Positions 9,581 to 31,784 of a stretch of 64,000 nt of DNA are shown here, one piece after another. The notes beneath the pieces are model-generated. The model searched no databases. It had not been told where the DNA came from and was given only the letters and a program-made list of their open reading frames with translations. Position numbers and translations under genes: made by a program. The DNA lies in contig NC_017096.1 of the NCBI RefSeq assembly GCF_000284335.1, forward strand, positions 620,001 through 684,000, in the 5' to 3' direction. The DNA comes from Caldisericum exile AZM16c01. Lineage in GTDB: Bacteria > Caldisericota > Caldisericia > Caldisericales > Caldisericaceae. The stretch's first letter is position 1, and the number at the start of each line of letters is the position of its first letter.

Positions 9581-10909
9581 ATGGAAAAGGACGCTGCGGT
9601 AATTAAAAATAACTCAATTTCTAAGAAAATTCTAAAGTGTTTTCCATCATTGAAGTAAAGGAATTTCAACATGTTCTTCTACGGACAATCGATTTCTCTT
9701 ATGGGTACCTCGATGCAGACGTCTGCTCAAAGCTGGCTTGTACTTGAATTGACAAACTCTTCCTTTCATTTAGGACTTCTTAGCGCGGTGCAATTTCTCC
9801 CTATGACGTTACTATCATTTATTGCGGGTGTTTTAGCTGATAGATTCTCAAAACAAAAACTGCTTTTGATAACACAATCTTTTTTAACGCTTCTCGCCGT
9901 TGCCCTTGCAGTGCTAACCCAAATGCATGCAATAAAATTCTGGCATGTGCTTATCATAGGATACATGACAGGAATAGCAAATGCAGTAGATATGTGAGCA
10001 AGACAGGCATTTTATTCAGAAACAGTAGAAAAAGATGCTTTAATGAACGCAATTTCACTCAATTCAGGTATATTTAACCTTGCCCGCATAGTAGGCCCTG
10101 CTGCAGCAGGAATTTCCATCGCAAAACTTGGCTATGCTTTTTGTTTCTATGCAAATGCTGCAAGCTTTATTCCTGTAATAGTAGGCCTTTCTTTGATACG
10201 TTTGCCATCCAGGGAGAGAAATACAAAAAGCATTATAAAGAATCTATTTTCAGAGATTCGGGAAGGCATAGTTTATGCTTTCAAGAGAAATATCATCCTA
10301 ATTTCCTTATTTTTGCTCCTCATTGTTAACATACTTGCACTTAATTTCAATGTGCTTATACCTGTTTTTGTCAAAGATGTTCTTAAACGGAGTGCAGAGA
10401 CATATAGAAACATGCTTTCTGTTATGGGAATAGGCGCAATCCTCGGCTCTACAATACTTGCAGCGACAAGTCACAAAGGCGTTAAGGACTACTACATATT
10501 TGGAGGAGCAACACTTCTTGGTGTTTCTCTTATACTGTTTTCTGTTCAAAAATCCTTAATAATATCTTTTATTTTTATAATGCTTTCTGGATTTATAATG
10601 ATTATTTTCCTGAACTTCATAAACACAACAATTCAAATTAACTTAGAACCTTATATACGTGGAAGAGTTATGAGCCTTTACGCTTTTGTGTTTGGTGGTC
10701 TAACGCCAATTGGTTCTCTTTACGCAGGCACCGTTTCCGAAAAATTTGGTGCAAGTTTTGCATTTCCTCTATCAGGATTACTTGTGCTTGTTGTGGCACT
10801 TGTCATTTACTTCTCATGGTAAAAAAAGATTTTTGGAAGCATGTTCAAAAGGGAAGAACCTGGAATTTCAGAAATTTCCTCAGCTCCTATTAACGCTGTG
10901 AAAAAATGA
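9581..10909 (+). pseudogene. MFS transporter (DHA3-like) with three in-frame stop codons
   Basis: A single open frame from ATG 9581 to a TGA overlapping the next start (ATGA, 10906-10909) encodes a recognisable major-facilitator drug/solute exporter, interrupted by TAA (9656-9658), TGA (9995-9997) and TAA (10820-10822). The frame is never lost: family-like sequence continues across each stop (FPSLK-stop-RNFNMFFYGQ; NAVDM-stop-ARQAFYSETV; YFSW-stop-KKIFGSMFKREEP). Segment TM1-4 lies before the second stop and the rest after it. A TATAAT box at 9554-9559 and GAAAGG precede the ATG. Most likely a pseudogene decaying by nonsense substitution. It would have been translationally coupled to chrA. 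Confidence 0.85.
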
Positions 10910-19326: not shown

Positions 19327-19971
19327 ATGGGTGAATATTTTGAATTTTTAACAAGTAGCGAGCTTGTTTTTCTTACGGGAAGAAGGGCCAAGAACCTTTC
19401 AGAACTTCTTGAAGGTATTAAGGCATCAAGTGATGCAACAATTTTCTATCATACTCATAGATTCCTTATCCAACACCAATATATTTCTCCAGAACCTCCA
19501 AATGATTTTGCTTACTGGGTTTCAAATATTCTACTTGATAGACTTGTTTCCGAAAAACTTGCGGCGATTGACCTTATAGAGTGTAAGTCTATTCGTGAAA
19601 TAAAAGAGAAAATCATTAGAGTAATAGAAGAAAACATGAGTAGAAACAATTCGAGGACATGCCCTCCAGGAATGGAATTTCACTTTATGTATTCACACAT
19701 ATTTATCACAAATTCAGGCAAGAAAGCATCAAACCTTAAAGAGTTTGTTGAAATTCTCCGAGTTATACCCATTCGATCAGTTTACTTTCATATGTTCCAG
19801 TCTCGCCTTATGCTTGGAAAAGGAGAAAACGATTTTTCAATATGGCTGAGAGAAAGTTTAGGGCAAAAAGAACTTGCAGACGAGATTTCGAGAATTGACC
19901 CTTACACCTACACACTTGAAGGATTGCGAAATAAATTGATAAGATTGGTTTCGGAGTATGTATATGGCTAA
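19327..19971 (+). CDS. DUF5752 family protein, linked to trehalose synthase
   Basis: A 214-aa protein with two similar halves. The first holds FYHTHRFLIQHQYISPEPPNDFAYWVS; the second holds VYFHMFQSRLMLGKGENDFSIWL. This internal duplication, with a conserved His and an (N)DF..W motif, is characteristic of the DUF5752 family as I recall it. Such proteins are encoded next to glycosyltransferases of the TreT type in several thermophiles. Its stop overlaps the treT start, implying a functional link, possibly as a regulator or subunit of trehalose synthesis. Promoter-like TATACT lies about 20 nt upstream; the ribosome site is weak (AGG). Confidence 0.7.
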   Translation: MGEYFEFLTSSELVFLTGRRAKNLSELLEGIKASSDATIFYHTHRFLIQHQYISPEPPNDFAYWVSNILLDRLVSEKLAAIDLIECKSIREIKEKIIRVIEENMSRNNSRTCPPGMEFHFMYSHIFITNSGKKASNLKEFVEILRVIPIRSVYFHMFQSRLMLGKGENDFSIWLRESLGQKELADEISRIDPYTYTLEGLRNKLIRLVSEYVYG

Positions 19972-21184
19972 AATAGACGATTATAGAAGCGTAGTTTCTA
20001 ATGAGGTTGTGGATGAACTATACTCTATCTCGAAACATCTTCAAGGGAAGGTGATTCAAAATATCAATTCAACAGCAGTTGGTGGCGGTGTTGCGGAGAT
20101 CCTGACAAGAATGGTTCCACTTTTAAAAGAGCTTGGCATAAATGCGTTGTGGGATGTAATTAAAGGAAATGACAGGTTTTTCACGATAACGAAGAAAATG
20201 CATAATGCCCTACACGGAGTAGATATAGAAATAACCAAAGAAGAGTTTGAATATTTTCTTGAAGTTGACAGGGAAAATTTTTCAATTTTGGATGGTAATG
20301 CTCACATCATATTTGTCCATGATCCACAGCCTGTTGCTCTTGTTGAGAAAAGGAAAGAGTTTAAAAGCAAGTGGCTTTGGCGATGTCATATAGACTTTTC
20401 AAATCCAAAGGAAAATGTGTGGCAATTTTTGAAAAATTATATTGAAAATTATGATTTAGCGGTGTTTTCAGCGCCTGCCTTTGCAAGAAGCCTATCAATT
20501 CCGCAAGTTTTAATTTCACCTTCGATTGATCCTCTAAGCGATAAGAATAGGGAATTAACAGGAAACGAAATTAATGAGGTTTTTGAACGATTTAAAATTG
20601 ACCGAAGTAGGCCAATAATAACTCAAATCTCACGGTTTGATTATTTGAAGGATCCTGTTGGTGTAATAGAAGCATATAAACTTGTAAAGAAACATGTTGA
20701 TTGCCAATTGATTCTTGCAGGAGGTGGAGCAAATGACGACCCAGAGGGGGAGAAGGTTCTAAATGAGGTAATGGATAGGGCATCTTCTGATCCCGACATA
20801 CATGTGCTTCTTCTTCCACCAGGATCGGATATTGAAATAAATGCACTTCAAAGAGGATCAACGGTAGTTCTACAAAAATCGTTAAGGGAAGGTTTTGGCC
20901 TTACAGTTGCAGAGGCGCTTTGGAAAGCAAAACCTGTTATTGCCTCTGCTGTTGGTGGGATTCCCCTCCAAATAACGCATAAGTATTCAGGAATTCTAAC
21001 TTTAACTGTCGAAGGCACCGCTTATTGGATAAAACAACTTATCCAGGCACCAGAATTTGCCTATAATCTTGGAAGAAATGGCAGAGAACACATAAGAAAT
21101 AACTTCCTTATCACAAGGCATTTAAGAGATTACATGCTCACCTTCCTTTCGCTTATAACCAAAGGTGAAGTAGTCAGATTGTAG
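19964..21184 (+). CDS. treT: Trehalose glycosyltransferring synthase (TreT-like, GT4)
   Basis: TreT makes trehalose reversibly from NDP-glucose and glucose. The N-terminal Rossmann half contains INSTAVGGGVAEILTRMVPL and HDPQPVALVE. The C-terminal nucleotide-sugar-binding half contains ITQISRFDYLKDPVGVIEAY, LAGGGANDDPEGE and the GT4 E-x7-E motif REGFGLTVAEALW, followed by PVIASAVGGIPLQI. Length (406 aa) fits TreT. I prefer ATG 19964 over 19958 because GGAG lies 7 nt before it. It overlaps the DUF5752 gene. A second trehalose route (OtsAB fusion) is encoded 1.3 kb away on the other strand. Confidence 0.85.
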   Translation: MAKIDDYRSVVSNEVVDELYSISKHLQGKVIQNINSTAVGGGVAEILTRMVPLLKELGINALWDVIKGNDRFFTITKKMHNALHGVDIEITKEEFEYFLEVDRENFSILDGNAHIIFVHDPQPVALVEKRKEFKSKWLWRCHIDFSNPKENVWQFLKNYIENYDLAVFSAPAFARSLSIPQVLISPSIDPLSDKNRELTGNEINEVFERFKIDRSRPIITQISRFDYLKDPVGVIEAYKLVKKHVDCQLILAGGGANDDPEGEKVLNEVMDRASSDPDIHVLLLPPGSDIEINALQRGSTVVLQKSLREGFGLTVAEALWKAKPVIASAVGGIPLQITHKYSGILTLTVEGTAYWIKQLIQAPEFAYNLGRNGREHIRNNFLITRHLRDYMLTFLSLITKGEVVRL

Positions 21185-21543: not shown

Positions 21544-22428
21544 TTACGGAAGTAGATCGTTTGTGAATTGGTCTGAAATTGTTGGCTTTTGATAAATGCA
21601 ATTCGAAGCCGTGTAATCAAATGCTTCTTCAACAGTAACACTGCCATCGGCTTTATTGGTATCCGCCAATCCGTTGAGCATCCCTTGAACTACAAAATAA
21701 TATGTGAATTGTCCATGTCCGAGGTCTGAAAATTCGTAACTTACGCCTGATTCAGAACAAGCCATATTGATTATCCTGCCTCCACTTGCAAGATCGGTCA
21801 TTCCGCCTGAAAGGCATGAGTCAAATGCAAAAATGATTCTATTAGTTTTAAAACCGTTGAATAAGTCTTTTAATTCCCCATCCCATAGGTAGTCAAAATT
21901 ACCATTATCTCCCCAAATAACAATGGATTCATCAATATTCTCTTTATCGCCGTCGTTTGCCTTGCCTTTTGCTCCGTGCCCGCTAAAGAAGAAGAACACC
22001 TCATCATTGTTTTGGACGGTGTATCTTAGTGAAGTTATTGCATTTGTAATGTTTGTTCTATTTGCATCACTATCAGTTATTAAATAGATGTTCGTTGTTT
22101 CATAGCCATATTTTGTGGTGAGTGCTTCTTTCATGCTAAGCGCATCTGCAACACAAAAGTTGAGGTCATTCGATGTCCCAGGGTAATCATTTATGCCAAT
22201 GACTATTGCGTATTTATTACCTGCACAAGGTTCACCAATTATACCTGTTGCAACGGCTGTTGCAGGTTTTCCTGAAGTAGGCTTTCCTTTAACTTCTAAC
22301 TTCTTTACGATCTCAATGTCAGTTGCTGAAAATTCTTGCTTTCCTCCGTTTGAGCTTATTGCAAGTGTTGGGAATGTTGTAATAAAAATAAACAAAATTA
22401 ACAAAAAATAGGCTAACAATTTTTTCAT
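21544..22428 (-). CDS. Secreted caspase-like (C14/metacaspase) protease
   Basis: A 294-aa protein with a Sec signal peptide (1 to about 23). The caspase-fold p20-like domain begins at NKYAIVIGINDYPG. The catalytic His lies in FFFFSGHGAKG and the catalytic Cys in IIFAFDSCLSGGM, the classic metacaspase/C14 dyad; an acidic insertion lies between them. ATG 22428 is chosen because GGGGGTGA precedes it; an in-frame GTG 9 nt upstream overlaps that site. Prokaryotic caspase homologues act in proteolysis and stress or defence responses, but this one is predicted extracytoplasmic and has no recognised partner next door. Substrate unknown. Confidence 0.85.
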   Translation of the reverse strand: MKKLLAYFLLILFIFITTFPTLAISSNGGKQEFSATDIEIVKKLEVKGKPTSGKPATAVATGIIGEPCAGNKYAIVIGINDYPGTSNDLNFCVADALSMKEALTTKYGYETTNIYLITDSDANRTNITNAITSLRYTVQNNDEVFFFFSGHGAKGKANDGDKENIDESIVIWGDNGNFDYLWDGELKDLFNGFKTNRIIFAFDSCLSGGMTDLASGGRIINMACSESGVSYEFSDLGHGQFTYYFVVQGMLNGLADTNKADGSVTVEEAFDYTASNCIYQKPTISDQFTNDLLP

Positions 22429-22521
22429 TTTTATCACCCCCTCATTTTATTTTACCACTTTTTTTAAAAAAAACATTTACAAGATGAAAGATTAAATAAA
22501 AAATTGAGAAGCCCTTAAATC

Positions 22522-24777
22522 CTATATTTTGAAAAGACTTTTTATGTAATCGATAAAGGAGAGTTTGTGCTCTTTTGGTTTTTCTTCAAGCGATTTTGAA
22601 AGTAATTTGAGGATTTTTAATAATTCCTCAGGTGAGTTTACAAAATATTTTGCTTTGGTATATACCGCACTTCCCACTTTTAATGTAAAATATCCATATT
22701 TGTTGCCAACCTTGAATGCTTCTTCGTCAACATAATCATCGCCTGCAATAATTGCAAAGTCGTAGCCCTCTTTTGCAATGCGTGAAACAAAGATACCTTT
22801 GTTTAACTCTTGTGCTTTTATTTCTATGCCTTTGTTTATCTTTGTTACATAAGCGTTTGTCTGAGCGGTAAGTTGGATGAGTATGTCAAGCATTTCTCTC
22901 AATGCAAGTTCTGCTGTATCTGTTGGAGATGCTCTTACATGAAAAACTATCGAAAATTCTTTTTCTTCAATTGACGAGTTGGGAATTCTATCTTTATATA
23001 GAGTTAAGATTTTTAAAACATCTTTTTTGAAAGATGCGTCAACCCATTCAAAGGTCTTCTCCCAATCTTTATCCTTTTCTTTTATGAATGCGCCGCGCTC
23101 TGCGATGAGAGTGAAATTTCCCTTAGGAAAGAATTTATCAAGGTCTGTTTTTGTTCTTCCGCTTGAAATTGCAACGAATATACCCTTACGAGAAGCTCCG
23201 TCTAAAAGGTCTAAAACTTCTTTTGATGGCAATGTTTTTGATCTGTCAACATCGAAACCTACAAGAGTTCCATCGTAATCGAGAATTATTGCTTTTCTTT
23301 TTGCATGTAAAAACTGATTTTTTAGTTCCTCTATATTTTTCTCATCAAGGTAGATGGGCTTTTTTGTGGGGGTACATTGCGATAGTTCTTCGAGAAAACT
23401 TGTCGTCCATTTTTTTATATCGTTTTTCTTAAGATATTCAACCATAATCTTATTTCTCTCGAAAAGTTCATCTTTACTTAAAGAGAGTGCTTCTTTCAAA
23501 GTATCAGCAATGCCTTCAATATCGTTTGGGTTTATGATAAATGCTCTTCTCAGGTCTTCAGCTGCACCAGTTAATTCGCTTAGGATAAGTGCTCCTTTTG
23601 GATTTGCTGCAATGTATTCTTTTGAAACCAGATTCATACCATCTGCAAGAGAAGTTACAAGAAGGGCATCTCCAAGTATATAAAGCGGGACAAGTTCTTC
23701 AAAAGGAAGGTTTTTAAATAAGTACTGAATTGGTGACCAATCGATAGTGCTAAACCTTCCATTTATTTTTCCTATTAGCGAATCAATATATTCCTTAGTC
23801 TCATTGTATTTTTCAACACCAATCCGTGACGGTACTACAACTACGATAAATAAAACATTTTTATGAAACTCGGGATATTTTTCGAGGAATCGTTCAACTG
23901 CAAAGAGCCTGTTTACTATGCCTTTTGAATAATCAAGTCTGTCTATAGAAAGGACAACTTTTGAGTTGTGTGATAGATTTTTAAGTTCTGCAACTCTTTT
24001 CTTTATTTCAGGCAGTTCTTCTGCCTTGTTGTATTTATCAAAGTCGATACTTATCGGGAAAACGTCAGTTCGAATCCGTCTTCCGTCTATGTAGATATTT
24101 TTTATATCATGCTCTATGGAGAAAATGCTTCTAACTGTTTTTATGAAATTTTGCTGATATTGATACGTGTGAAAGCCTATAAGGTCTGCATTTAATACGC
24201 CTTCAAGAATTGTTTCTCTCATATTTTTGGGCATGAGTTTAAATATTTCATAAGGAGGAAAAGGGATATGTAAGAAAAAACCCACTAATACATTTGGTTT
24301 TTCCTTTTTAATGAATGATGGGAGAAGCATCAAATGGTAATCGTGTATCCAAAGTAAATCATCGTCGTCAAGAATTTTTAGGGCTGTTTCTGCAAATTTT
24401 TTGTTAACTTCAATGTATCTTTCAAATTCATCCCGTTTAAATTTTGCGAAGCTCGGGAATGAGTGGAAAATGGGCCATAGGGTGCTATTACAGAATCCAA
24501 GGTAAAATTTTTCCATTTCTTCTTTTGAAAGAAAAACGGGTATAGCGTTGAGGGTTTTTAAAAGATATTCGTAGACACGCTCTTGGTTAACTTCTTCGAT
24601 TGTTTCTCCAGGCCAACCAATCCAAAAATAATCTTTACTTTCTGTAATCTCAAGGATTGTGCCGATTGAAGCAGAAAGACCTTGAACAAGCCCACCTGGG
24701 CTTTGCTTGAAAATTAAAGAATCACCCTCTTTTACTGCGTAAACTGGCAACCTGTTTGATGCAATTATAAGTTTCAT
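22522..24777 (-). CDS. Bifunctional trehalose-6-phosphate synthase/phosphatase
   Basis: A 751-aa OtsA-OtsB fusion making trehalose from UDP-glucose and glucose 6-phosphate. Residues 1 to about 470 are the GT20 synthase, opening with IIASNRLPVYAV, then PGGLVQGLSA, IHDYHLMLLPSFI, VLSIDRLDYSKGIVNRLFAV and LADGMNLVSKEYIAANP. Residues about 500-730 are a HAD-type phosphatase with the nucleophile motif ILDYDGTLVGF and IAGDDYVDEEAF. No Shine-Dalgarno is seen before the ATG; instead TAAAAT ends 5 nt upstream, so a leaderless transcript is likely. Together with TreT it gives the cell two independent trehalose routes. Confidence 0.93.
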   Translation of the reverse strand: MKLIIASNRLPVYAVKEGDSLIFKQSPGGLVQGLSASIGTILEITESKDYFWIGWPGETIEEVNQERVYEYLLKTLNAIPVFLSKEEMEKFYLGFCNSTLWPIFHSFPSFAKFKRDEFERYIEVNKKFAETALKILDDDDLLWIHDYHLMLLPSFIKKEKPNVLVGFFLHIPFPPYEIFKLMPKNMRETILEGVLNADLIGFHTYQYQQNFIKTVRSIFSIEHDIKNIYIDGRRIRTDVFPISIDFDKYNKAEELPEIKKRVAELKNLSHNSKVVLSIDRLDYSKGIVNRLFAVERFLEKYPEFHKNVLFIVVVVPSRIGVEKYNETKEYIDSLIGKINGRFSTIDWSPIQYLFKNLPFEELVPLYILGDALLVTSLADGMNLVSKEYIAANPKGALILSELTGAAEDLRRAFIINPNDIEGIADTLKEALSLSKDELFERNKIMVEYLKKNDIKKWTTSFLEELSQCTPTKKPIYLDEKNIEELKNQFLHAKRKAIILDYDGTLVGFDVDRSKTLPSKEVLDLLDGASRKGIFVAISSGRTKTDLDKFFPKGNFTLIAERGAFIKEKDKDWEKTFEWVDASFKKDVLKILTLYKDRIPNSSIEEKEFSIVFHVRASPTDTAELALREMLDILIQLTAQTNAYVTKINKGIEIKAQELNKGIFVSRIAKEGYDFAIIAGDDYVDEEAFKVGNKYGYFTLKVGSAVYTKAKYFVNSPEELLKILKLLSKSLEEKPKEHKLSFIDYIKSLFKI

Positions 24778-25165: not shown

Positions 25166-27040
25166 ATGGAAAACATTTTAAAGGAAAAATTAGACGAAGT
25201 AAGCCTTAAAAAGTTAGAAGCAATTGAAAATCCAACGGTTCTTGAATTTATTTCAAAGTATGTTTCTTTATGTAATCCGAAAAGCATTTTTGTTTCAGAT
25301 GGAAGTCCTGAGGACATTAACTTTATTAGGAAAAAGGCACTTGAAGATGGGGAAGAGATGCCTTTAAAAATTAAAGGGCACACGGTTCATTTTGATTCCT
25401 ATTACGATCAGGGAAGAGACAAAAGGAACACAAAGATTTTGTTAGATGAAGGAGAGTATCTTGACCCAGTTATTGAAACTGGGGATAGAAAACTTCTTAC
25501 AGAAGAAGTGCACAAGATTTTGAGAAACATTATGTTTGGTAGGACAATGTATGTTCTCTTTTATGTACTTGGACCTGAAAACTCGCCCTTTACTATCCCT
25601 GCCATACAACTTACTGACTCACCATATGTTGCACACTCCGAGAATATCCTCTATAGACAAGGCTATAATGAATTTCTAAGGAAGGGAAGAAGTTTAACGC
25701 GATTTTTTAAATTTGTCCACTCTGAAGGCGAACTTGATGAGAGGAAGACTTCAAAAAATCTTGACAAAAGGAGAGTCTACATTGACCTAAAAGACGAAAT
25801 TGTCTATTCATGTAATACGCAGTATGGTGGCAATACAATTGGCCTTAAAAAATTGGCAATGCGTCTTGCAATAAAAAGAGCATCACTTGAAGGATGGCTT
25901 ACAGAACATATGCTCCTTATGGGAGTAAATGGTCCAAACGGAAGGGTTTCTTACTTTGCAGGTGCATTTCCCTCTATGTGTGGTAAAACTTCTACTGCGA
26001 TGCTTAAAGGGGAGCGTATTGTTGGTGATGATATTTCCTACATAAGAGAAATTAACGGTGTTGCAAAGGCAGTTAATGTCGAAAAAGGAATGTTCGGCAT
26101 AATTCAGGGTATAAATTCGAAGGATGATCCAATCCAATGGAAAGCGCTTCACACACCAAATGAAATAATTTTCTCGAATGTTTTAGTTTATGATGAAGGA
26201 TCTGTTTATTGGGTAGCGCACGATGGCTCTATTCCTGAAAGAGGAATAAACCACTCTGGAGAATGGTTTAGGGGAAAGAAAGATGAGAAAGGAAATGAAA
26301 TTCCACCATCGCACCCGAATGCAAGATTTACCCTTCATCTTGAAATCCTTGAGAATGTCGATGAAAACTTACACAATCCCAATGGCGTTGAAGTTTCGGG
26401 GATTATCTACGGTGGAAGAGATTCCGACACATGGAATCCTGTTTGCGAAGCGTTTGATTGGGAACATGGAATTGTGCTTAAAGGTGCTTCGATTGAATCG
26501 GAAACAACCGCTGCAACCTTAGGGAAAGTTGGTGTAAGGGAATTTAATCCTATGTCAAACCTTGATTTTCTTTCAATCCCGATTGGAAAGTACATTGAAA
26601 TTAACCTTGAATTCGGAAAAAAGCTTAAAAAGGTGCCTAAGATTTTCGGGGTTAATTACTTCTTGAAAGATGAAAACGGGCGATTCCTCAACGATAAGAA
26701 TGATAAAAAGGTGTGGTTAAAGTGGATGGAAAAAAGAGTTCACGGTGAAGTTCGTGTGCTTAAAACACCTGTTGGCTTTATGCCGCTTTATGAGGACTTA
26801 AAAGTGCTTTTTAAACAATATCTTGGTAAGGATTATACCGAAGATGAGTATGTAAAACAATTTACCTTGAGAGTAAATGAAAACCTATCGAAGATTGAAA
26901 GACTTAGAAAAATTTATTCTGACTTAAAATTTGTGCCTGCCCGTGTTTTTGAACTCTATGACGAGGAAGAAAAAAGGCTAAAAGAAGCACAATCAAAATT
27001 CGGAAACTACATAGAACCTTACAAATTTGAGGTGGTATAG
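25166..27040 (+). CDS. pckG: Phosphoenolpyruvate carboxykinase (GTP)
   Basis: Converts oxaloacetate and GTP to PEP and CO2, the entry to gluconeogenesis, or runs in reverse for anaplerosis in anaerobes. The 624-aa length and the P-loop region FAGAFPSMCGKTSTAML (with the hallmark reactive Cys) identify the GTP-type family. Other conserved pieces are FGRTMYVLFYVLGP, NTIGLKKLAMRLAI and VGDDISYIRE. AAGGAGG lies before the ATG. It is transcribed alone and followed by a hairpin. YvcK, encoded at 1.7 kb, is required for gluconeogenic growth in other bacteria, but no regulatory link is visible here. Confidence 0.95.
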   Translation: MENILKEKLDEVSLKKLEAIENPTVLEFISKYVSLCNPKSIFVSDGSPEDINFIRKKALEDGEEMPLKIKGHTVHFDSYYDQGRDKRNTKILLDEGEYLDPVIETGDRKLLTEEVHKILRNIMFGRTMYVLFYVLGPENSPFTIPAIQLTDSPYVAHSENILYRQGYNEFLRKGRSLTRFFKFVHSEGELDERKTSKNLDKRRVYIDLKDEIVYSCNTQYGGNTIGLKKLAMRLAIKRASLEGWLTEHMLLMGVNGPNGRVSYFAGAFPSMCGKTSTAMLKGERIVGDDISYIREINGVAKAVNVEKGMFGIIQGINSKDDPIQWKALHTPNEIIFSNVLVYDEGSVYWVAHDGSIPERGINHSGEWFRGKKDEKGNEIPPSHPNARFTLHLEILENVDENLHNPNGVEVSGIIYGGRDSDTWNPVCEAFDWEHGIVLKGASIESETTAATLGKVGVREFNPMSNLDFLSIPIGKYIEINLEFGKKLKKVPKIFGVNYFLKDENGRFLNDKNDKKVWLKWMEKRVHGEVRVLKTPVGFMPLYEDLKVLFKQYLGKDYTEDEYVKQFTLRVNENLSKIERLRKIYSDLKFVPARVFELYDEEEKRLKEAQSKFGNYIEPYKFEVV

Positions 27041-27079: not shown

Positions 27080-28801
27080 TCAATAATTAATTGTTAAATT
27101 AATAATTCCATTCTTAATTGATTCTTTGAGATCTTTACTCGACATATTTGCAAGTTCCGTAAGGAAAGTTGTTCTTTCTTTTTCGCTCATTAATTTTGGT
27201 TGTGATTGATATAGTGTAATAGGCTCCAACACAAATTGAAAATTTTTACCTATTTTTGTTATAAAGAGCATCAAGCCAACTTGTGTTTCATATGAGAAGT
27301 ACTGGTCAAATATAAAATTGCCAAGTGAGTAAAAAATAAGTGTTTTTATTTTCCGCTTTTCCGAGGTGTAAAGTTCAATATCCTTTACCACATGTGGGTG
27401 GCTTCCTATTATGAGGTCTGCACCTGCGTCTACAAGTGTATGTGCAAGGTAAGAGTCATAAGAAGTACTCTTTTGGATATATTCTTCGCCAAAGTGCATA
27501 AACAGGATTAAGAAGTCATTTTTGTGTGTTTCTTTGGTGTTTCTTATCCAATCCTTAACTTCGCCAATTTTAAATGGATATGTTGCATTAAATCCAACAA
27601 TGACAATTCCATTTCCTTTAAAAATTTTTGAATTTTTAAAATCCCACGGCTCGCCAAAGTATTCGATATTTCCGCTTTCTAAAATTTCTTTTGTTTCTTG
27701 GAGGCCTTTGTTTCCCATATTGTCTGTGTGATTATTTGATAATGATACAACGTTGAAGTGTGCGTAAAGAAGTGTTTGTAATGCACCTTTATCAAAACAA
27801 AAACGGAGAGAATCCCTTGGAAAATTTACCTTTTTGTATGTAATTGGTCCTTCAAGATTGCCTACCACGTAATCCAATCCTCGAAATGCCTGTTCAATAT
27901 GATAAAATGGATAAAAATACGAATTTGATAGGATTTTTTGATACACACCTCTATCAAGCATGATATCTCCCACAAATGAAAGTGTTAGGGGTTTATCATT
28001 TTGAGTGGGAATTTCCCCTTTTTCAAAGATACAACTTACGTATGAGGTTGAACTTGCAAGGTAATCATTTGAGTAGTCCTGTGTATTTTTGTGGGAAAGA
28101 ATCTCATATTTTCCATAGCCTCTTTTTAATGAAAAACTCCTTAAAATATAGAGACTTTGCCATGAGTCAACATCGATTTTTGGAAATTCGTTTTCTTCAA
28201 AGTCTAAAAGTACCCTTAAACTTTTTTGGTCGTGCACATTCTCTATTGATTTTGGAAGATAATGCGAAAAATCTACACTTGCGATGATAAGTGAATTATA
28301 TGGAAGGATCTTATTTAGAATATCGGAAAATTCTTTTGCAATATTCAATGTAACGTTTTGGCTTACAAGAATTGGCAAAACATTGCTATTTCTGAAATAC
28401 TTATTTAAAAAAGGTATGTGATTTTCAATGCCATGATCAAGGTAAATTGAAGCATTATCTTCAATTATATTAAAATGACTCCTCAATTTGTTAATTTTAT
28501 CAGTTGCTATATTTAGCTCAAGAAATTGTGAGTTAGCAGTGATAAAAGAAGCACCCATTGAGGCACATTTTCCAAAGTGGTCTGGGGAAAGTAAAACTAT
28601 TACATCGGGCTTTACCTTGGTTGAAACATTTTTGTAGAAGTCAATCATTACATCTTCTGCAACCAGATGGTGTGGAACAACACCGCCTATTATAACAGGC
28701 TCTTTAATTTCTGGTGCAATAGCATTAGATGGGTTTAGTGCAACAACCAAAACCCATAGAATTGTTAAAATTACAATTAATTTGAAAAGTTGCTTACCCA
28801 T
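27080..28801 (-). CDS. Secreted MEMO-CapA fusion protein
   Basis: A 573-aa protein with an N-terminal hydrophobic export or anchor segment (about 7-27). Residues about 35-265 are a MEMO domain (AmmeMemoRadiSam protein B family), with its conserved His motifs LLSPDHFGK, LDHGIENHIPFL and ASVDFSHYLP. Residues about 270-540 are a CapA/PgsA-type metallophosphatase-like domain: LSFVGDIMLDRGV, VVGNLEGPIT, VVSLSNNHTDNMGNKGL, LIIGSHPHVVKDIE and YSLGNFIFDQ. CapA proteins are tied to poly-gamma-glutamate capsule formation; MEMO domains are metal-binding proteins of unclear activity. The start lies 25 nt inside the upstream DUF3160 gene, so translation is coupled. Substrate unknown. Confidence 0.85.
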   Translation of the reverse strand: MGKQLFKLIVILTILWVLVVALNPSNAIAPEIKEPVIIGGVVPHHLVAEDVMIDFYKNVSTKVKPDVIVLLSPDHFGKCASMGASFITANSQFLELNIATDKINKLRSHFNIIEDNASIYLDHGIENHIPFLNKYFRNSNVLPILVSQNVTLNIAKEFSDILNKILPYNSLIIASVDFSHYLPKSIENVHDQKSLRVLLDFEENEFPKIDVDSWQSLYILRSFSLKRGYGKYEILSHKNTQDYSNDYLASSTSYVSCIFEKGEIPTQNDKPLTLSFVGDIMLDRGVYQKILSNSYFYPFYHIEQAFRGLDYVVGNLEGPITYKKVNFPRDSLRFCFDKGALQTLLYAHFNVVSLSNNHTDNMGNKGLQETKEILESGNIEYFGEPWDFKNSKIFKGNGIVIVGFNATYPFKIGEVKDWIRNTKETHKNDFLILFMHFGEEYIQKSTSYDSYLAHTLVDAGADLIIGSHPHVVKDIELYTSEKRKIKTLIFYSLGNFIFDQYFSYETQVGLMLFITKIGKNFQFVLEPITLYQSQPKLMSEKERTTFLTELANMSSKDLKESIKNGIINLTINY

Positions 28802-31269
28802 TTTGGCTTTGGAGGGACATTCCCATTCTTAAGCATTGTCCTCCATTCTTCGTCTGTAAGCCTATTTTCTATTGGATACTTAAATTCGTAATAAGAAAAA
28901 ACAGGTCCAATTGATAGGTAGATGTTGCCTTTGTCGTCGGGACATGCAACGATAATTGTATTAACATAGCCAAGTCCTTCCTCAACTGCAAGTTTTGTAT
29001 TTCCATCAGTATGAACATCAGTTACAATGGTTGGCTTTATAAGGTCAATATCTGTTTCTCCAGAAAAAAGCATTTGCATGGACGAATCGAAGTATTCTCC
29101 AATACCTTTAATTGTGTAGTAATCGGTATCATCAAGAGGTGTATTTTCAAGTTCTTTCTTTACAACTGAAAGAAGCCTTTGGAGAAGTGAGTCTAATTGT
29201 TCAAGAGAATATTTCTTTCGCTCTATTGTATCTATTAAATTTTGGTCATTTGTTTGTGCTTGAATTCTTATAAGCCCATTCTTTGTAAGGCGGGTTAATT
29301 CAAGAAGTTTTACATAAAATTCAGGTATAGGCTCAACGTATCCGGGATATGGTTTCTCTTCCGGACCACCTTCTCCTTTTTCTGCCATTGTATAACTCTG
29401 TTTTACGTAGAGAACTGTATCATGTCTTAGCTCTGTCCAAGAGGAGAGGGCAGTTTGAAGGAGTTTATCAGAGTAGGCGCTTGTTTTCATAAACGTTGGG
29501 AGCCCTTGTGTGTTATTTAAAAAAAGGGTTGTAAGAACTGAAAGCCATTTATTGTAGAGCGTTTTATTCCATTCATCTTTGGGTAAATTTTGGACATAGG
29601 TTTTAAGTTCATTAAACATCTTATTATAATCCGAATAATTTGTGTCACCCTCTTTTTTCAAGATTTCATAAGCTCTATCTGAGCCCAGAAGTGCCATAAG
29701 ATCGAGGCCTCTTGGGAAGGCTTTCACTTCTCTTCCACTATTGCAAAACTCAATATATGTTTTTACCCAAGTAAAAGGGCGATTTTCAGTTGCATCGTTG
29801 TACTTATCAAACCACGTATAGGTAAAAGGTAGATCTTTTGTTGGAAGTGGCGTTTTTGGACCTGTATATTCTCCCGAAAAAGGCGATACGATTCTTGAAA
29901 ATAAATACGAATCGATAGTATTTCTCTGCCCAAGAAATCTCATTCCCTTTGTTTCTTTAAGGAGTCTTAAATTTATTTCTTTTAATTTGTCTAAGTCATC
30001 TTTACTTAGAGGAGGGCAAGGCGTAGACATAGTGCATTCACCGAGACCGCTATAAATCATTGGATCTTTTAATTTTTGAAGTTCTCCTTTTATTTCATCA
30101 AATTTCGTTAATATATCACTTTCTTTTGAGTTTTCAGTAAGAAATTTGTTTAAAACGCTTGCATATTCGTAAGGTGTAATATCATCAGAAAATCCAACAA
30201 GGAATGATGTAATTTCATACATGGTTGACCATTTATTCTGCGCTTCGTTTGACCTTAGAAAATCGTAAGCAATAATTAATCCTTGGAGGGTTTGAATTTT
30301 TGCATCATATTCGGATATGATTGCATCGTATGGTCCGCACTCCGATTGACCAGGTTCGATGTACCGTGAGCCATTCAAAAGAAAAGTCATTCTCCCATAC
30401 CACATAAGTGTCTTAAAATATGATTTAAGAGCTTCGTTTTCGGTGTAATGTCCTCTTGGCACGTATTGAGAGTAATCTTCCTTATAAAAGAATATTTTGG
30501 AATAGTCAAAACCTCTGTGAGCATTTATTAACTGTAATTCTTGCTTAACTTGGTCTTTTACACTTTCATCAACTTTGAAATTTTCATCTTGAAGAAGTTC
30601 TGCAACACCAAAGAATGCGAGATTCCTTTTTGCAACATCTTTAATTATTGGATCAGAAGTGCTGTTGTATCTTTTTAAATTTTCGTTGTAAAAATAGTGA
30701 GTTAAATCTTTGATATATTGGTTAAATACATTGTTCTCAAAATCCTTTAGGGTTTTTTCAAAGAAAATATGGTAAAAATGAAGAATCGAATCTGCCGTAA
30801 TATATTTAGGGAGCTCTTTTGTTTCAAGTGCAAGATAATATGAATAAAAGTCCTCCTTTGGTGAAATTGTTTCTGGATACTGAATGTATCTCGTAGATAG
30901 TTTTAAATCTGCAATCTCTTTTGGTGTGTCTATCACAACAAAACCATTCTTTTTAAGTAAGGCAATTGCACTTTCGGGTATTGTAATTTTTCCTGAAATT
31001 GTCTTTAGGTTTTGAATCTTCGTAAGATCAAGTGGGAGTTCGTATTGTTTAGCCTGTGCATTTATTGGGAACTCAATGGCTACTTCTTCTGTTTCAAAGG
31101 ATTTTGCCATCAAAAATTCAATTTTTTGCTCACTGGTTTCTCCTGTTTGATTTACTCCCCCATTGTTTGATGTGCCTTGTTTCTTCCCTTGTAATGTAAA
31201 ATAAAAAAAGACCACCAAACTTGTTAAAACAAGCGTAATGATAATTGCAAAGACTATGACTTTTTTCAT
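28777..31269 (-). CDS. DUF3160 family exported protein
   Basis: An 830-aa protein. ATG 31269 follows GGGGAGG by 6 nt and is preferred to the ATG at 31284 that overlaps the ribosome site. One N-terminal membrane segment (about 4-25) is followed by a polar Gly/Asn-rich linker, so it is a membrane-anchored or secreted protein. The motif PKYITADSILHFYHIFFEKT is typical of DUF3160, a large alpha-helical family of unknown function. Later conserved-looking segments are KGMRFLGQRNTIDSYLFSRI, FPRGLDLMALLGSDRAYEIL and SSWTELRHDTVLYVKQSY. It forms a two-gene unit with the MEMO-CapA protein. Confidence 0.8.
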   Translation of the reverse strand: MKKVIVFAIIITLVLTSLVVFFYFTLQGKKQGTSNNGGVNQTGETSEQKIEFLMAKSFETEEVAIEFPINAQAKQYELPLDLTKIQNLKTISGKITIPESAIALLKKNGFVVIDTPKEIADLKLSTRYIQYPETISPKEDFYSYYLALETKELPKYITADSILHFYHIFFEKTLKDFENNVFNQYIKDLTHYFYNENLKRYNSTSDPIIKDVAKRNLAFFGVAELLQDENFKVDESVKDQVKQELQLINAHRGFDYSKIFFYKEDYSQYVPRGHYTENEALKSYFKTLMWYGRMTFLLNGSRYIEPGQSECGPYDAIISEYDAKIQTLQGLIIAYDFLRSNEAQNKWSTMYEITSFLVGFSDDITPYEYASVLNKFLTENSKESDILTKFDEIKGELQKLKDPMIYSGLGECTMSTPCPPLSKDDLDKLKEINLRLLKETKGMRFLGQRNTIDSYLFSRIVSPFSGEYTGPKTPLPTKDLPFTYTWFDKYNDATENRPFTWVKTYIEFCNSGREVKAFPRGLDLMALLGSDRAYEILKKEGDTNYSDYNKMFNELKTYVQNLPKDEWNKTLYNKWLSVLTTLFLNNTQGLPTFMKTSAYSDKLLQTALSSWTELRHDTVLYVKQSYTMAEKGEGGPEEKPYPGYVEPIPEFYVKLLELTRLTKNGLIRIQAQTNDQNLIDTIERKKYSLEQLDSLLQRLLSVVKKELENTPLDDTDYYTIKGIGEYFDSSMQMLFSGETDIDLIKPTIVTDVHTDGNTKLAVEEGLGYVNTIIVACPDDKGNIYLSIGPVFSYYEFKYPIENRLTDEEWRTMLKNGNVPPKPKWVSNFSN

Positions 31270-31370
31270 TTTACGCCTCCCCATATATATTTTATTAATT
31301 TTTATGAATATTAGATAATTTTATTTGAGATTTGTTCCACGTTTGTTAAAATCTTTTGGGAGGTTAAAGA

Positions 31371-31784
31371 ATGAAACTAAAAGTACTTTTTGTTTGTACA
31401 CACAATTCTGCACGATCGCAAATGGCAGAGGCGTTTTTGAATGCACTTTATGGCGAAAGATTTGAGGCATTTTCAGCGGGCACTCATCCAGGTACTCTTA
31501 ACCCATATGTAGTTAGAGCAATGAAAGAAATTGGGATTGACTTATCAAATAACAAGACAAAGTCTGTTACGGAGTTTAAAGGAAAAAGATTTGACTATGT
31601 TGTGACTGTTTGCGATCAAGCAAAAGAAGAATGCCCATACTTTCCAGGGGCACTCCAATACATTCATAAAGGATTTGAAGATCCAAGTACATTTACAGGC
31701 TCCGATGAGGAAATAATGGAGCGTGTTCGAAAACTACGTGATGAAATTGAGCAGTGGGTAATGGAAACATTTAGAAAGATATAA
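31371..31784 (+). CDS. arsC: Thioredoxin-type arsenate reductase / low-Mr phosphatase fold
   Basis: A 137-aa cytoplasmic protein with the P-loop CTHNSARSQ (catalytic Cys near residue 9, Arg 15) shared by low-molecular-weight tyrosine phosphatases and thioredoxin-coupled ArsC. The later [16 protein letters not shown] supplies the two further Cys residues expected for the ArsC triple-cysteine redox relay, which favours arsenate reductase over a plain phosphatase. GGGAGG precedes the ATG; a -10 TAAAAT lies just upstream. No arsR, arsB or acr3 gene is adjacent, so its role in arsenic resistance here is inferred from family only. Confidence 0.85.

Follow-up and report, generated by a model that had tools for sequence, protein, structure and literature searches.

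We analysed a window of 64,000 nucleotides (positions 620001-684000) in the single-contig genome of Caldisericum exile AZM16c01 (1,558,103 bases), in which two overlapping minus-strand genes encode a large protein of the DUF3160 family and a protein joining a MEMO domain to a CapA domain. The DUF3160 gene (28777..31284; an alternative start at 31269 is the second in-frame ATG) encodes 835 residues and is the only copy in the genome. It is followed on the minus strand by the 573-residue fusion (27080..28801), whose ATG lies 25 nucleotides inside the DUF3160 frame, the two genes being read in different frames over this stretch (28777..28801, from the coordinates of the open reading frames). This start had been singled out in an earlier sequence-only reading of the DNA, and the 25-nucleotide overlap recurs in a 68%-identical relative (genome G011, locus L061; fusion start at 9894, DUF3160 stop at 9870). 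Most other DUF3160 pairs have short gaps or overlaps, and the overlap seen here is likely to reflect translational coupling. Since both flanking genes, encoding phosphoenolpyruvate carboxykinase (25166-27040) and an arsenate-reductase-like phosphatase (31371-31784), lie on the opposite strand, DUF3160 and the fusion form a free-standing two-gene unit. A promoter and terminator scan of the pair was uninformative, since its counts (22 promoter-like and 4 terminator-like sites) differ little from the 16.1 and 2.4 expected from shuffled sequence.

Both proteins begin with a hydrophobic segment that AlphaFold models as a helix, namely residues 4-33 of the DUF3160 protein (31186..31275, minus strand), a membrane anchor, and residues 2-22 of the fusion (28736..28798, minus strand), a signal anchor. 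Peak hydropathy reaches 2.96 and 3.30, respectively, compared to 0.85 for the canonical MEMO protein of the same genome. The N-terminus is likewise hydrophobic in the fusion orthologues and nearly throughout the relatives of both proteins, and many DUF3160 relatives bear a lipobox. Judged from these features, both proteins are very likely anchored in the membrane with their domains outside the cytoplasm.

Profile searches confirmed every domain that the sequence-only reading had named, including the union of MEMO and CapA in one polypeptide. The DUF3160 protein matched PF11369 over residues 105-830 with 602.8 bits (cut-off 25). Within the fusion, the MEMO domain (residues ~33-260; 28022..28705, minus strand) scored 57.7 bits against PF01875 Memo over residues 43-208 (cut-off 27) and 67.7 bits against TIGR04336 AmmeMemoSam_B (cut-off 26), while the CapA domain (residues 273-500; 27302..27985, minus strand) scored 175.6 bits against PF09587 PGA_cap (cut-off 27). 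The AlphaFold model of the fusion was confident (predicted local distance difference test, pLDDT, 91.3; predicted template modelling score, pTM, 0.88), and Foldseek agreed with the profiles for both halves. For the MEMO half it returned MEMO1 (7kq8, E=1.2e-10), followed by class III extradiol dioxygenases (E 1e-8 to 1e-5); for the CapA half the best match was MslH, a lasso-peptide epimerase of CapA-like fold (8gq9, E=1.1e-15). The DUF3160 model was of moderate quality (pLDDT 72.3, pTM 0.76). The window protein is a clear member of its family (PF11369, arCOG03316), which is without known function or structure and was called a secreted enzyme in a 2014 survey (PMC4158269). Across 55 sequences, the near-invariant DUF3160 residues include five acids (D165, E183, E249, D270 and D368), compatible with, albeit not proof of, an enzyme or ligand-binding site.

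In a tree of MEMO sequences, those fused to CapA and those linked to DUF3160 form one group, here named MEMO*, and the branch separating canonical MEMO from it was supported 100/100. MEMO1 holds iron through H49, H81 and C244 (PMC11081632). Alignment of the fusion to these ligands retained both histidines (H44 and H75) and placed Asp212 at the position of Cys244. The fusion does not have the canonical His-His-Cys site, and the view that the key motifs of MEMO and CapA are intact holds for all but this one. Each ligand His is present in 25 of the 27 MEMO* sequences; at the third position 25 sequences have Asp, one has Glu and one has Cys, all of them possible metal ligands. Given these columns, MEMO* probably has the His-His-carboxylate set of the extradiol dioxygenases, and binding of a metal through His44, His75 and Asp212 is somewhat favoured. 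Class III extradiol dioxygenases (LigB, DesB and aminophenol dioxygenase) share the fold of the MEMO* half at only 7-14% identity; their Fe(II) sits in a His-His-Glu/Asp site, to which the putative ligand set of MEMO* corresponds. Because Caldisericum is an anaerobic genus, O2-dependent cleavage by MEMO* is doubtful.

MEMO* shares with MEMO1 and with AmmeMemoRadiSam protein B its fold, both His ligands and a D-x-S-H motif. In contrast to those proteins, it is exported rather than cytoplasmic, carries Asp212 in place of Cys244 and is fused to CapA; in contrast to protein B, it has no adjoining AMMECR1 or radical S-adenosylmethionine (SAM) gene. The absence of these two partners, claimed from sequence, is correct for the window but not for the genome, where a canonical MEMO gene (genome positions 950424-951182) adjoins AMMECR1 (951230-951748) and the set's radical SAM gene lies at 937177-938198 (minus strand; L238:678-1699). 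These AmmeMemoRadiSam genes, at 937-952 kb, are unlinked to the fusion at 647-649 kb, so the fused MEMO represents an extra paralogue, both divergent and exported, and not a displaced member of the set. The radical SAM gene is split over two frames here and intact in the closest relative (L239), reflecting either a real frameshift or a sequencing error.

Since MEMO1 binds Fe and Cu and has no known reaction (PMC11081632), we considered a non-catalytic role at the surface, in which the module would sense, bind or deliver iron or copper, as human MEMO1 binds iron. The MEMO fold and its almost fully conserved ligands would suit such a role. However, DUF3160 is often paired with CapA alone, without MEMO*, and no gene recognisable as a metal transporter or regulator consistently adjoined the inspected pairs, leaving metal handling improbable.

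The CapA half can be compared directly with MslH, in which Ca is bound by E44, N87, H259 and H261, alongside the residue pairs H88/D91 and H295/D11 (PMC10406935). Fusion residues D279, E317, N357, H358, H436 and H470 match MslH D11, E44, N87, H88, H259 and H295, respectively; together with H468, these are the key residues of the domain, supported by residue conservation. Six of the eight MslH acid/base and Ca-binding residues are thus retained. Of the remaining two, D91 is replaced by N361 in the window protein (this position is Asp in 19 of 25 fusions), and H261, the fourth Ca ligand, by G438. Additionally, H468 stands where MslH has a glycine (G293), and this substitution together with G438 indicates that the CapA centre differs from that of MslH. 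The fusion likewise scored only 45.6 bits against the NCBIfam MslH equivalog (cut-off 700), and no lasso peptide genes were recognised near the locus.

The calcineurin-like fold of CapA raises the alternative that the fusion acts at the surface as a metallophosphoesterase or nucleotidase, with DUF3160 as a carrier or binding protein in phosphorus scavenging. The Metallophos profile gave a weak match of 15 bits, under its cut-off, and the motif-V residues His468 and His470 are retained. However, Met281 takes the place of the motif-I His found in two-metal phosphoesterases and Glu317 stands in motif II, which leaves the usual two-metal centre incomplete; a phosphoesterase role would also leave MEMO* unexplained. 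We regard this alternative as unlikely, albeit less so than metal handling. The CapA site looks more like that of MslH than that of a phosphoesterase and is identical to neither. Retention of E317, N357, H436 and the acid/base residues D279, H358 and H470, together with Met281 in motif I, gives it the look of a single-metal acid/base centre, and we tentatively suggest, at slightly under even odds, that it performs such chemistry.

The sequence-only reading offered two roles for the pair, an envelope polymer pathway or a metal-dependent modification. The former would mean a system for making poly-gamma-glutamate or a similar capsule polymer, in which CapA acts like PgsA/CapA. The fusion resembles these proteins in its PGA_cap score, which is well above cut-off, in its conserved D, NLE, NNH, H and HxH motifs, and in its predicted membrane-anchored, extracytoplasmic placement, as in PgsA. 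In contrast to CapA/PgsA, its genome has no PgsC/CapC, it is fused to MEMO*, and its partner is DUF3160. PgsB and PgsC had been reported missing, which holds for both in the window and, for PgsC/CapC (PF14102), throughout the genome and all 54 Caldisericota genomes, the Bacillus subtilis control being positive. No ligase was recognised beside the inspected pair loci, a result that covers their flanks, PgsB/CapB not having been searched genome-wide. In the CapA tree, moreover, the Bacillus CapA proteins group elsewhere. The absence of CapC from all 54 genomes makes a polyglutamate-type synthase unlikely, and we consider the capsule interpretation very improbable; metal-dependent modification is the better of the two suggestions.

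The fusion, complete or as clear fragments, occurs in nine of these 54 genomes (G000, G007, G010-G014, G017 and G052), which span two classes of the phylum, G052 representing the other class. DUF3160 is present in all nine, and the two genes are directly adjacent in eight, the exception being G014, where both lie at contig ends. Neither outcome named in the sequence-only reading as refuting its proposal, an unconfirmed domain or a lack of co-occurrence in related genomes, was therefore seen. The phosphoenolpyruvate carboxykinase and arsenate-reductase-like genes flank the pair in G011 and G013, while different genes do so in G012, G010, G017, G007 and G052. Six more genomes (G006, G015, G016, G018, G020 and G022) carry DUF3160 without the fusion. 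Relatives belong to Caldisericum and other Caldisericota. A longer DUF3160 paralogue of 1017 residues is found in Caldisericia (L073:6111-9164, L231:5015-8068); it is not linked to CapA or MEMO*, and its N-terminal part appeared S-layer-homology-like by eye.

A wider scan recovered full-length fusions outside Caldisericota, in Patescibacteria, Atribacterota and Planctomycetota. DUF3160 adjoins the fusion in two Patescibacteria loci (L087, L226) and, with the order reversed, in Atribacterota (L077). It also stands beside a CapA gene free of MEMO in Clostridia (L117, L125, L126, L201-L204, L206, L207, L210, L211), in Patescibacteria (L137, L216, L217, L220) and in an unclassified bacterium (L130); in Bacteroidota (L148) the two are one gene apart, in reversed order. 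In three further Patescibacteria loci (L223, L224, L225) DUF3160 adjoins a stand-alone MEMO*. Thus, the fusion joins two alternative partners of DUF3160, and the pairing first noted between DUF3160 and the fusion is real but not specific to the fusion. In a class-level sample of Clostridia, CapA was the immediate neighbour of 9 of 17 full-length DUF3160 genes, compared to ~0.02 expected from CapA gene counts; the corresponding binomial value of 4e-22 ignores genome relatedness and reads only as far above chance. In a quickly built CapA tree containing several long rows, CapA from fusions occupies other regions than the MEMO-free CapA linked to DUF3160, which suggests, without proving, that DUF3160 gained CapA partners more than once.

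Many DUF3160 copies, and also some CapA genes and fusions, stand alone, as they would if unrelated exported genes were incidentally kept together in small genomes. Such an account fits poorly with a pair that occurs in several phyla, with either gene first, closely spaced or overlapping, and with exchange of partners. Conservation across phyla despite changed flanks led us to reject chance adjacency, and incidental linkage is the least probable of the alternatives considered. Because pairing and exchange of these partners recur in widely differing bacteria, a dedicated surface system is probable, in line with the earlier proposal of an undescribed system built on two large exported proteins. 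We are highly confident that DUF3160 functions as a module with CapA, MEMO* or both.

In nine fusion loci of Patescibacteria and Planctomycetota without an adjacent DUF3160, the fusion lies directly beside a gene for another exported protein, of ~550-660 residues and with the motif KPVIYLYP (L080:3946-5769, L081:7664-9415, L082:7600-9450, L083:2193-3845, L084:1-1761, L085:4001-5794, L086:4003-5778, L088:848-2842 and L089:4043-5827). Gaps or overlaps are mostly as short as those with DUF3160. For the members tested, Pfam gave no match above cut-off and neither NCBIfam nor the solved structures gave any, and the idea that they are remote DUF3160 proteins was rejected at a profile-profile probability of 0.5%. 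With this family filling the place of DUF3160, the fusion usually has a large exported partner drawn from either of two unrelated families. Four fusion loci (L078, L079, L094 and L096) have neither partner.

Taken together, these findings are consistent with a small operon for one extracytoplasmic, membrane-anchored metalloenzyme module. In this model, DUF3160 would provide the large constant or scaffold component and work with one or two catalytic domains, either separate or fused. The CapA domain, with its proposed MslH-like single-metal acid/base centre, would epimerise or hydrolyse a peptide- or amide-containing surface molecule, and the MEMO* domain, with its class III extradiol-dioxygenase fold and putative His-His-Asp site, would assist through a second metal centre. 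The domains, their fusion, the hydrophobic N-terminal anchors, the conserved linkage and the exchange of partners across phyla are observed here; a physical complex, metal occupancy, reaction and substrate are inferred. As a whole, modification of a peptide or amide surface molecule by such a module is the explanation we favour, with moderate confidence; taken separately, the assignment of a peptide or amide as substrate is only a tentative one.

Several observations weigh against this model. Pairing is not obligatory, given the six Caldisericota genomes in which DUF3160 has no adjacent CapA or MEMO*; roughly half of the DUF3160 genes in Clostridia are likewise without either neighbour, and the enrichment reported for that class takes no account of relatedness. 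Moreover, of the eight searched Patescibacteria and Planctomycetota genomes in which the fusion is unlinked, six contain no DUF3160. The pair has no linked substrate gene. At E<=0.001 the DUF3160 model matched no PDB entry, nor did profile searches turn up a relative of solved structure. Finally, the metal ligands of MEMO* and CapA were assigned by sequence alignment rather than from coordinates, and the CapA half departs from MslH at Asn361, His468 and Gly438.

A defence or phage origin of the pair was also dropped, as a search gave no PADLOC match and a single weak PHROG match of unknown function, confined to the CapA half. Among the literature titles and abstracts searched, DUF3160 received one passing mention, a MEMO-CapA fusion none, and no account of DUF3160 paired with CapA and MEMO* came up. 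CapA/PgsA proteins are routinely annotated as 'capsule synthesis' though their chemistry is unknown, and MEMO is without a known reaction despite medical interest; a surface module linking CapA, MEMO and DUF3160 gives each a concrete, testable partner, and the DUF3160-CapA form occurs in cultured Clostridia. The module also points to errors in many 'capsule synthesis' annotations. A broader proposal would make DUF3160 the mark of a widespread, undescribed extracytoplasmic enzyme system with interchangeable parts (CapA, an exported His-His-Asp MEMO*, or both fused), in which CapA was recruited more than once, an unrelated exported family replaces DUF3160 in some Patescibacteria, and CapA acts as a surface peptide epimerase or related acid/base enzyme rather than a capsule helper. 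That all of this holds jointly is speculative and rather unlikely.

Other features were noted around these genes. FG-GAP beta-propeller proteins often adjoin DUF3160, before or after it, in Clostridia and Patescibacteria (L117:2654-3634, L125:2465-3469, L126:2774-3709, L208:3536-4597, L216:2562-4298, L218:6983-7786 and L221:6902-7483), and in some Patescibacteria (L216) CapA and an FG-GAP-like domain form one protein. In G203, the CapA gene adjoining DUF3160 is interrupted and lies in two fragments (L206:4264-4843). Elsewhere in the window, a gene at 21544-22437 (minus strand) encodes a secreted caspase-like protein (PF00656, 65.3 bits) with a hydrophobic stretch at its N-terminus, and two trehalose routes adjoin, represented by a TreT-like trehalose synthase (19958-21184, plus strand) and a fused trehalose-phosphate synthase/phosphatase (22522-24777, minus strand).

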